Part shown: in pieces, positions 19,602 to 21,751 of the stretch
How positions within the stretch are numbered: the stretch's first letter is position 1
How the letters are laid out: each line of letters opens with the position of its first letter
Assembly: GCA_011620315.1 (NCBI GenBank)
Contig: WOZO01000135.1
Location: forward strand, 1-33,676
Direction: 5' to 3'
Length of the DNA stretch: 33,676 bases
From: Sideroxydans sp.
GTDB lineage: Bacteria; Pseudomonadota; Gammaproteobacteria; Burkholderiales; Gallionellaceae
Notes under the pieces: generated by a model
What the model was told of the DNA's origin: nothing
What the model saw: only the letters and a program-made list of their open reading frames with translations
Database searches by the model: none
Made by a program: the position numbers and the translations under genes

Positions 19602-20204
19602 TTAAACTTCCCGCTTGAAGCGGTATGCCGCCACGCTGCCACGCAGGTTGGGCAGCAGGTTCACATCACCGCTTTCATTCATCACATGACGCCCAAGGAT
19701 GCCGATGTTGAGGTGCTTGCACAGCAGTTCGAAGTCGTTCAACGTGCACAGATGCACGTTGGGTGTGTCGTACCACTCGTAAGGCAAAATCTTGGAGACA
19801 GGCATATGGCCTTGCATGATCTGCAAACGGTTCTTCCAGTAACCGAAGTTGGGGAAGCTGATGATGCCCTCGCGGCCTACGCGCACGATCTCATTCATCA
19901 AAGCTTCGGTGTGGCGAGTCGCTTGCAGCGTCTGCGACAGGATGACGAAGTCGAAAGACTGATCTTCGAAGTCGGCGAGACCGCTATCCAGATCATTCTG
20001 GATCACGTTCACCCCATTGGCGATGCAGGTAGCGATCTTCTTGTCACTGATCTCCACGCCGTAGCCGCGCACGTTTTGCGTCTCGCGCAGGTAGCGCAGC
20101 AAGCTGCCGTCGCCACAACCGAGGTCGAGCACGCTGGAACCCTGCGGTATCCAAGCGGCAATGGCGGCGAAATCCGGGCGCGACTCGATGATGGATGTAT
20201 TCAT
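19602..20204 (-). CDS. metW: Methionine biosynthesis protein MetW
   Basis: The 200-residue product is a class I SAM-dependent methyltransferase-fold protein of the MetW family. SAM-binding motif I is VLDLGCGDGSLL at about 25-36; GYGVEISDKKI, VIQNDLDSGL and FDFVILSQTLQATRH follow, then ISFPNFGYWKNRLQIM, which is typical of MetW. MetW works with MetX in homoserine acylation; its exact chemistry is not settled here. ATG 20204 is chosen because of the strong site GGAGG 7 bases before it; a longer frame reaching towards metX has no such support. In many genomes metX and metW overlap or touch; here a 109-base spacer with a GTCCGC/GCGGAC hairpin separates them. Confidence 0.95.
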   Translation of the reverse strand: MNTSIIESRPDFAAIAAWIPQGSSVLDLGCGDGSLLRYLRETQNVRGYGVEISDKKIATCIANGVNVIQNDLDSGLADFEDQSFDFVILSQTLQATRHTEALMNEIVRVGREGIISFPNFGYWKNRLQIMQGHMPVSKILPYEWYDTPNVHLCTLNDFELLCKHLNIGILGRHVMNESGDVNLLPNLRGSVAAYRFKREV

Positions 20205-20256
20205 CGGTACACCTCCGATAAAGACGATGCATTCATCAGATATAGGCGCTGTCGGT

Positions 20257-20276
20257 GTCCGCAAGCATTCGCGGAC
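20257..20276. other. Hairpin in the metX-metW spacer
   Basis: GTCCGC (20257-20262) pairs with GCGGAC (20271-20276) around 8 bases. The remainder of the spacer (20205-20313) contains a short GGAGCAGG-type direct repeat and no gene. No T-run follows on the minus strand, so it is not a clear terminator. Confidence 0.35.
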
Positions 20277-20313
20277 GGTCGTCTCCCCACTGCGCGGGGC
20301 CCCTGCTCCCTGC

Positions 20314-21447
20314 TCATACTTGCACCTCCACCGCCACGCGTTCAAGATAGTTACGCATCACCGCGAAATACTGTTCGTCCTGCATCAGGAAAGAATCGTG
20401 GCCGTGCTGCGAAGTGACCTCGGCGTAGCTCACGTTGCGTTTGTTATGCAACAGCGCTTTCACGATCTCGCGCGAACGGTCCGGCGAGAAGCGCCAGTCA
20501 CTGGAGAACGACACCACCAGATAGTTCGCTTGCACGTTGGAAAAAGCGCGCGCCAGATTGTGTTCGGTGTGTTGTGCCGGGTCGAAATAATCCAGCGCCT
20601 TGGTCATCAGCAGATAAGTGTTGGCGTCGAAGTACGCGGCGAACTTGTCGCCCTGATAGCGCAGATAGGATTCGACCTCGAACTCGATGTCGTAACCGTA
20701 TTTGTATTCGCCCGAGCGCAGGCCGCGGCCGAACTTGCCCGCCATCGCATCGTCCGAAAGATAAGTGATGTGGCCCAGCATGCGCGCCAAGCGCAAGCCG
20801 CGCGTCGGTACCACGCCGTGCTGATAGAAATCACCGTTGTGGAAATCCGGATCGGTGAGGATGGCGTTGCGCGCCACATCGTTGAACGCGATGTTCTCGG
20901 TGGTCAGATGCGGTGCGGTGGCGATAGCCAACACATTGCGCACACGATCAGGATAAGTGATCGCCCATTGCATCGCCTGCATGCCACCCAGGCTACCGCC
21001 GATGATGGCGGCGAATCGATGGATACCGAGAAGATCAGCCAGACGTGCTTGCGAATGCACCCAGTCTTCCACTGTCACCATCGGGAAGCTCGAACCGTAT
21101 TGCTTGCCGGTGACAGGATCAATGCTCGAGGGACCGGTAGAGCCGTGACAGCCGCCGAGGTTATTTAGGCCGATGACGAAGAATTTGTTGGTATCGACAG
21201 GTTTGCCGGGGCCGATCATGTTGTCCCACCAGCCGATGTTCTTCTCATCATCGGCATAACTGCCGGCGACATGGTGGTGGCCGGACAGTGCGTGACAGAC
21301 CAGGATGGCGTTCGACTTGTCGGCATTCAATGTGCCGTAGGTCTCGTACATCAGCTCATAGCGCGGCAGCACTTTGCCGCAGCTGAAATTCAGCGGCTCT
21401 TCAAAGGTTGCGCGTTGCGCGCTGACGATTCCAACAGATCCTGACAA
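20314..21447 (-). CDS. metX: Homoserine O-acyltransferase MetX
   Basis: The 377-residue product is an alpha/beta-hydrolase-fold homoserine acyltransferase. Landmarks: [46 protein letters not shown], the nucleophile Ser152 in [11 protein letters not shown], the acid Asp in [13 protein letters not shown] and the catalytic His in SQHGHDSFL. It acylates homoserine (acetyl or succinyl; the donor cannot be read safely here) as the first committed step of methionine synthesis. The start is TTG 21447: it gives the family N-terminus SVGIV, and GGGAG lies just upstream; no in-frame ATG fits. The leader carries a SAM-II-like aptamer and a terminator-like hairpin, so expression should fall when SAM is plentiful. 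metW follows. Confidence 0.95.
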
Positions 21448-21466
21448 AACAAAACTCCCAAAACAA

Positions 21467-21496
21467 AACCCGCTCAGCTTGAAGCTAGAGCGGGTT
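21467..21496 (-). terminator. Terminator-like hairpin in metX leader
   Basis: Read on the minus strand, AACCCGCTC pairs with GAGCGGGTT (9 bp), with inner complementarity AGCTT/AAGCT, and is followed by TTGTTTT. It lies between the SAM-II-like aptamer and the metX ribosome site (GGGAG). It starts right where the aptamer tail ends, so it is a good candidate for a riboswitch expression platform that stops transcription. Confidence 0.7.
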
Positions 21497-21498
21497 AT

Positions 21499-21553
21499 CT
21501 CGCTTTAGCTGGAATGTTTAACGTGCCCCGCAAGCTGATCTCAAATCGGCACG
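21499..21553 (-). promoter_or_regulatory. SAM-II (SAM-alpha) riboswitch aptamer, metX leader
   Basis: On the minus strand the leader reads, in order: P1 strand CGTGCC (21553-21548), GATTTGAGATC, AGCTTGCGG, P1 partner GGCACG (21527-21522), TTAAACATTCC, AGCTAAAGCGAG. This keeps the hallmarks I recall for SAM-II: GAUUUG at the start of the P1 loop, GCUUGC before the closing strand, CACGUUAAACA straight after it and GCUAAAG in the tail. The loop and tail can pair over 4-5 bases (GCUU with AAGC, or CUUGC with GCGAG), as the family pseudoknot requires. SAM-II binds S-adenosylmethionine and typically controls metX/metA. The position, 52 bases before the TTG start, is as expected. Confidence 0.82.
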
Positions 21554-21559
21554 GGACGA

Positions 21560-21588
21560 AGTGTCCGTGTTTTGTCACAGGCTGTCAA
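21560..21588 (-). promoter_or_regulatory. Candidate metX promoter
   Basis: TTGACA on the minus strand (21588-21583) is followed after 17 bases by GACACT (21565-21560), a weak -10. A start about 7 bases on would fall almost exactly at the first P1 base of the riboswitch, which supports the assignment. Confidence 0.5.
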
Positions 21589-21751
21589 TTTCGGCGCAGT
21601 GACGGTGCAAAAAACCATGGTGCAAAAATGAAACAGATGCACAGCCGTAACAAAGCTGCAACAAAGGGACGGCATCATCCGCACCCAGTTCTTTCGGCGC
21701 CTGACCGTGAAGAGCCAAGTGCAGTTATTTTTCTAACGTTAAGGAGTAACC

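Follow-up and report, generated by a model that had tools for sequence, protein, structure and literature searches.

By its sequence, the leader of metX in a Sideroxydans sp. genome is a genuine SAM-II riboswitch, and we propose, with a probability of roughly 0.85, that it turns metX (and metW with it) off through transcription termination. The element lies on the minus strand of the window, the whole stretch of 33,676 nucleotides that we analyzed, where it precedes the methionine-pathway gene metX and then metW. In the proposed switch, the two strands of the P2 pseudoknot (strands a and b) have complements within the terminator (a' and b'). The aptamer, the terminator, the complementarities between them and their conservation among relatives were all computed (Table 1).

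A covariance search of the window against all 4227 Rfam families gave a single match above a gathering threshold. This match was to RF00521 (SAM-II, or SAM_alpha) on the minus strand (21562-21488), with a score of 40.3 bits against a threshold of 36 and an E-value of 6.9e-6. SAM-V (RF01826) gave no gathering-threshold match in the whole window. A first-pass annotation had assigned the leader to the SAM-II class, and the covariance score upholds that assignment. The parts it had named (P1, GATTTG, GCTTGC, GCTAAAG, the 9-bp hairpin, GGGAG and the TTG start) were all found in place on the minus strand. The element has a P1 helix with the GAUUUG loop and GCUUGC, and the predicted P2 pseudoknot strands GCUUGC and GCUAAAG are both present and invariant in 47 aligned metX leaders, in which the core letters are fixed and the linkers and terminator vary. 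By analogy with the solved SAM-II and SAM-V structures (PMC6061858), GATTTG would supply the third strand of the SAM pocket. We collected 248 leaders, 140 from Gallionellaceae and 108 from outside the family (mostly the better-scoring among the matches listed), with L140 excluded. Strand a was found as CAGCTTGC in 234 of these leaders, and all nine letters of strand b (GCTAAAGCG) in 212.

Table 1. Features of the metX leader and downstream genes, with positions in the window.
Feature	Positions	Strand	Remarks
-35 box TTGACA	21583..21588	minus	letters; TTGAC conserved in relatives
putative weak -10 box GACACT	21560..21565	minus	17-nt spacer
SAM-II (SAM_alpha, RF00521) match	21488..21562	minus	40.3 bits, gathering 36
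P1 5' strand CGTGCC	21548..21553	minus	letters and RF00521 match
GATTTG, predicted third strand of SAM pocket	21542..21547	minus	RF00521 match; invariant in 47 aligned leaders
strand a, P2 5' strand CAGCTTGC (RNA core CAGCUUG)	21530..21537	minus	invariant in 47-row alignment
GCTTGC	21535-21530	minus	letters
P1 3' strand GGCACG	21522..21527	minus	letters and RF00521 match
strand b, P2 3' strand GCTAAAGCG (RNA GCUAAAGCG)	21501..21509	minus	invariant in 47-row alignment
GCTAAAG	21509-21503	minus	letters, within strand b
intrinsic terminator hairpin, 9-bp outer stem	21467..21496	minus	dG about -19.5 kcal/mol
terminator 5' arm AACCCGCTC	21496-21488	minus	letters
b', terminator 5' arm and loop CGCTCTAGC (RNA CGCUCUAGC)	21484..21492	minus	proposed antiterminator partner of b
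a', terminator 3' arm CAAGCTG (RNA CAAGCUG)	21475..21481	minus	complement of strand a
terminator 3' arm GAGCGGGTT	21475-21467	minus	letters
U-rich tract TTGTTTT	21460..21466	minus	letters
ribosome site GGGAG	21455..21459	minus	letters; outside aptamer and terminator stem
metX, TTG start 21447-21445	20314..21447	minus	NCBIfam NF047916 MetX, 676.7 bits, cut-off 560
metW open frame	19602..20345	minus	TIGR02081, 266.2 bits, cut-off 189.5

SAM-II was detected at E <= 0.001 in 108 of 150 Gallionellaceae genomes (50 pass the curated threshold) and in none of 14 control genomes. Across Burkholderiales, 117 of 250 genomes match RF00521, 48 of them above threshold, and the matches fall in 60 of 120 genera. 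The metX-type aptamer pattern recurred in 60 stretches of named genomes; 41 of these are labeled Gallionella, Sideroxydans, Sideroxyarcus, Ferriphaselus, Gallionellaceae or Gallionellales, and 19 carry broader labels. These labels fit the Gallionellaceae host that the first-pass annotation had assumed. Within the family, P1 of the type GTGCC/GGCAC precedes metX in 47 of 49 leaders (two unclassified) and the type GCGCC/GGCGC precedes metZ in 82 of 91 (nine unclassified), with no cross-over. The two types differ by one pair, U-A to C-G, which is the only paired change noted between the sets. The same genome contains a second SAM-II element (L002; contig C177, 23098-23175, minus strand), which scores 31.6 bits, below threshold, and is the sole other RF00521 match in the whole genome. 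It has the same terminator platform, and the N-terminal part (119 residues) of the frame behind it matches O-succinylhomoserine sulfhydrylase, metZ. We rejected the reading of the 42 RF00521-negative Gallionellaceae genomes as losses of SAM-II, since 15 of 16 that we examined keep the core before metX. All 16 have metX, and the 15 cores lie directly before it, eight in the standard shape and seven with an inserted hairpin. In the remaining genome (G017, locus L314), inspection by eye found no SAM-II in the approximately 140 bases upstream of metX on its contig. With that one exception among the 16, the core is kept in orthologous leaders, as the first-pass annotation would have it.

The identity of metX as the target was confirmed by its NF047916 score (676.7 bits versus 560). 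For metW, the TIGR02081 match covers residues 56-244 only, so the true start is probably further in. A weak promoter had been proposed to start the RNA near P1, and TTGACA-N17-GACACT is indeed present; as a hexamer pair it is weak, and the placement of TTGAC is conserved. A generic promoter scan of the window did not detect it because of the weak -10 box. TTGAC starts 34-36 bases 5' of P1 in 47 of 49 Gallionellaceae metX-type leaders (shuffled rate 0.01), and it occurs 28-40 bases before P1 in 87 of 91 metZ-type leaders and 64 of 108 leaders from outside the family; the placement controls gave shuffled rates of 0.008-0.018. The -10 position in relatives has the consensus GGAaACT, with GAAACT or GATACT in some. 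A promoter just 5' of P1 is usual in the SAM-II class (Corbino 2005, PMC1273637). Upstream of the promoter, a direct repeat of TTTTTGCACC (window 21604-21613 and 21619-21628, minus strand) sits between metX and a divergent porin gene.

Between P2 and metX lies a predicted intrinsic terminator, a hairpin followed by a U tract, and both are conserved. This agrees with the earlier claim that a terminator adjoins the aptamer tail: the 9-bp hairpin and U tract are present in the window and conserved in relatives. The hairpin was not detected in a generic terminator scan of the window, because that scan takes loops of 3-8 bases only. By script, 235 of the 248 leaders have a hairpin with a U tail. 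The other 13 comprise six with a long inserted hairpin, four of translational type, two that are imperfect (L235 and L276, in hairpin or tail by eye) and one that is incomplete (L112, cut by a contig end). The six inserted hairpins, all in metZ-type leaders (L032, L036, L039, L079, L105 and L135), are near-identical, about 60 bases long and placed in the terminator loop; they are perhaps a mobile repeat.

Four pairs of the terminator stem have changed on both sides in the 47-row metX alignment, where 91.1% of the helix's cells are paired. For P1 and the terminator together, 93.0% of cells are paired and 15 carry double changes; none of 500 shuffles reached either value. For the covariation score 24 shuffles did so, for the number of pairs with a double change 215 and for the number of further pair types 494. 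The inner five pairs of P1 are invariant within the metX set, and 9 of 47 leaders lack the outer pair. Of the paired changes looked for among related leaders, those in the terminator stem are borne out at four pairs, but P1 shows almost none in the metX set.

Transcription control is our best reading of the metX leader. The earlier judgment that it is likely gains support from the conservation of the terminator and the complementarities of the P2 strands. SAM binding, the order of folding, formation of a:a' and the OFF logic in the cell are the steps that we infer. The RNA would start at or just 5' of P1. When SAM is low, P2 would not be held, and b would pair with b' once the 5' arm of the terminator is made, giving an antiterminator; a could also pair with a', and polymerase would read on into metX. 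When SAM is high, a and b would be locked as P2 around the ligand, leaving b' and a' free to form the terminator and stop transcription before the ribosome site. The exchange would thus set P2 (a:b) and the terminator (b':a') against an antiterminator (b:b', possibly with a:a'). Because the terminator is more stable than the antiterminator at full length, such a switch must be kinetic.

Between strand b (GCUAAAGCG) and b' (CGCUCUAGC), 8 of 9 pairs can form, and CAAGCUG in the terminator 3' arm complements strand a (CAGCUUG). Across the 47 metX leaders, 87.6% of b:b' cells are paired, compared to 26-43% when the strands are slid, and 85.3% of a:a' cells are paired, compared to 10-41%. Because neither strand a nor strand b varies in the metX set, covariation with the terminator is impossible there, and we set it aside as a proof of a:a' and b:b'. 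In nascent folding of the window's leader, b:b' is the minimum free energy structure from base 71, once b' is made; it shifts register at bases 80-83 and gives way to the terminator at base 86, once the whole 3' arm has been made. If a and b are withheld from pairing, as P2 would do, the terminator is the sole strong downstream hairpin. We then counted leaders with an antiterminator prefix fold (at least four of six core pairs) among distinct terminators of at most 60 bases. The fold appeared in 40 of 43 metX-type, 60 of 61 metZ-type and 54 of 96 outside-family leaders, and loop-shuffled controls gave rates of 0.23, 0.46 and 0.18, respectively. Outside the family, at least one leader has the fold in 22 of 27 families, and 42 of the 96 leaders lack it.

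A gapless score placed the complementarity of a and b above that of loop shuffles by 24.7 and 29.7 SD for metX-type leaders, 15.6 and 27.6 SD for metZ-type leaders, and 13.0 and 19.1 SD outside the family. Taking one leader per genus (39 leaders) gave 11.4 and 12.3 SD, and one per outside family (27 leaders) gave 8.0 and 11.0 SD; in all of these comparisons the loop shuffles also destroy pairs inside the terminator itself, and the effect of relatedness is removed only in part. Single leaders reached p < 0.05 for a or b in 43 of 43 metX-type, 59 of 61 metZ-type and 59 of 96 outside-family cases, and in 24 of 39 and 16 of 27 leaders of the one-per-genus and one-per-family sets. Complementarity ranks without composition control were rejected, because GC-rich windows pair with any CCCG arm, and were replaced by shuffled queries and shuffled terminator loops. 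With query composition controlled, the P2 strands are the most complementary windows of the aptamer in all three groups. The best window is strand a for metX-type leaders (mean z -2.9; b -2.4) and strand b for both metZ-type (-1.8; a -1.4) and outside-family leaders (-1.7; a -1.1).

These rankings bear on another way of gating the same terminator. Behind a SAM-II aptamer, some other antiterminator could form, for example between GCGGG after strand a and the CCCGC arm, with the P2 matches reflecting common descent or self-complementarity of the terminator. Windows containing GCGGG are as complementary as the P2 strands before composition control, and Leyn et al. 2014 (PMC4239095) speculated on GC-rich regions. 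However, the P2 strands lead in all three groups once composition is controlled, and individual terminators keep one complement where the other is lost. The b complement is carried by 128 of 133 Gallionellaceae terminators. Three of the five that lack it (L009, L060 and L067) retain a full 8-base a complement, GCAAGCTG; L026 has neither complement, and L141 is a script mis-call. Conversely, L047 and L053 have a different terminator stem (CCCAGTC) and no a', but a perfect b complement, CGCTTTAGC. We therefore consider a separate antiterminator unlikely.

Of the 248 leaders, 14 have a strand a other than CAGCTTGC; none of the 14 belongs to Gallionellaceae, and 10 have a terminator. By eye, the only clear matching change among the 10 is in L154, where strand a is GGATTGC and the terminator contains CGCAATC. 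L292 has an altered strand a and retains a six-base complement. The other eight (L161, L169, L254, L256, L265, L269, L290 and L293) do not fit, and we rejected compensation in strand a.

A translational SAM-II switch, in which SAM-bound P2 masks the ribosome site and the hairpin is incidental, seems less probable still. The solved metX SAM-II RNA is translational (PMC6061858, PMC10907184), and four leaders from one other family (L155, L249, L251 and L257) lack a terminator and have GCTAAAGAGGTC a few bases before ATG. In the window, however, GGGAG lies outside the aptamer and downstream of the terminator, and 235 of the 248 leaders have a terminator by script, with 6 more recognized by eye. 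The four exceptions carry AGAGGT, which resembles a ribosome site, in the P2 tail adjoining the ATG, and they are predicted to be a translational SAM-II type within the same order. Finally, a decayed aptamer blind to SAM, next to an attenuator that acts constitutively, is very improbable: the RF00521 score is just 4.3 bits over threshold, but the core letters stay invariant in 47 aligned leaders while the linkers and terminator vary.

The SAM-II class, its terminators and its presence in beta-proteobacteria were published in 2005 and 2007, so the novelty first implied for a terminator after SAM-II in a betaproteobacterium is weak. Corbino 2005 (PMC1273637) includes Bordetella bronchiseptica in its alignment and describes a putative terminator separating P2 from the gene in many SAM-II members. 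The elements of that account share P1, the P2 pseudoknot, a promoter near P1, putative terminators and methionine genes with the window; the window differs in its beta-proteobacterial host, its metX target and the explicit two-P2-strand antiterminator proposed here. For bacteria of the window's class, transcription attenuation was already predicted in the 2007 account, and its available portion gives no SAM-II antiterminator sequence and calls the mechanism not established. The metZ SAM-II of Sinorhizobium meliloti, associated with the RZ sRNA, is likewise predicted to terminate on SAM (2022, PMC9373788), and an observed sRNA of about 100 nt fits the terminated length. It shares a predicted SAM-induced terminator with the window, but its host is an alpha-proteobacterium. 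SAM-V (RF01826; Huang and Lilley 2018, PMC6061858) has a closely similar pocket and pseudoknot, but is translational and has a helix P3.

A further precedent is the metXZ element of Leyn 2014 (PMC4239095). In that report SAM_alpha is given only from Rhizobiales and Rhodobacterales; for beta-proteobacteria the authors describe a "novel" element upstream of metXW or metZ that has a pseudoknot and a terminator, and they speculate on an antiterminator. Host group, metXW and metZ targets, pseudoknot, terminator and speculated antiterminator all correspond to what we find. The element was presented as new, and its comparison with SAM-II here goes by the description, consensus letters apart. Because RF00521 matches are widespread in the family and order, many with low scores, the metXZ element is very probably an unrecognized SAM-II riboswitch. 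Its identity was perhaps missed since many copies fall below the Rfam threshold, which 50 of the 108 matching family genomes pass. We found no account of a two-P2-strand exchange in the available text of the literature searched on SAM-II antiterminators and metXZ, though one may exist.

Two kinds of relatives go undetected by Rfam. In genus g12, seven metX leaders (L311, L316, L317, L321, L323, L324 and L325) carry an additional hairpin, like P3 of SAM-V, that lies after P1 and before the 3' strand of P2; by eye it shows one paired change (L321 versus L324). At E <= 1, cmscan gives no Rfam match for any of the seven, and no match is listed for them to RF01726, the family named "SAM-II long loops" in PMC2864571. 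A conserved SAM-II-like RNA (L326-L337), GAKTTAAYNNACAACTTGCRG ... CCGCTAAAGCG, occurs exactly in 29 of 250 Burkholderiales genomes and 13 of 120 genera, and the reversed pattern had no match in the 250 genomes. Among 21 sequences of this metK leader RNA, P1 changes on both sides and P2 has one compensated pair (21 cells, 0 of 500 shuffles). A model built for it (R1) has metK downstream in 17 of its 30 best hits (L338-L367); of the other 13, BLAST places a small unknown frame behind four, and nine are unclassified. Rfam, including RF00521, did not find the metK RNA in eight loci at E <= 1, and we found no description of it in the available text of the literature on metK riboswitches of Burkholderia and betaproteobacteria. 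In a small search the R1 model picked up every one of the seven P3-bearing leaders as well as the aptamer in the window (27.5 bits), and so the metK RNA, the P3-bearing leaders and SAM-II look like one superfamily. Over the window's whole genome, R1 found only the metZ copy.

Other leader arrangements were seen. Twelve leaders (L148, L237, L238, L243, L263, L267, L270, L278, L282, L287, L291 and L235) are tandem, with SAM-II followed by a second SAM-II-like aptamer. By eye, 10 of the 12 precede a small frame starting MFDC or MYDC, the exceptions being L148 and L243, and one such frame gave no Pfam match. A SAM-V candidate in L148 was rejected, as it is below threshold and elsewhere in the locus. 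Below-threshold matches to the sRNA Bp2_287 (RF02424) lie opposite the SAM-II leader in L237, L243, L267, L282, L287 and L291, and Bp2_287 may be an antisense reading of such leaders. By NCBIfam, SAM-II precedes metK in L153 and metH (a partial frame) in L166; the gene downstream of L232 and L236 looks by eye like metK.

A broader picture is tentative and, in our estimate, a little short of even odds: beta-proteobacterial SAM-II would work by strand exchange, with terminators built from complements of both P2 strands of which lineages keep either or both, and would belong to a wider, largely unrecorded group that includes the P3-bearing metX leaders and the Rfam-missed metK leader RNA. For the metX leader itself, a transcriptional platform is most likely, with a putative but well-supported antiterminator. 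The complementarity of the terminator to both P2 strands points to a definite mechanism for the switch, and it provides a concrete, testable antiterminator for transcription-acting SAM-II switches.
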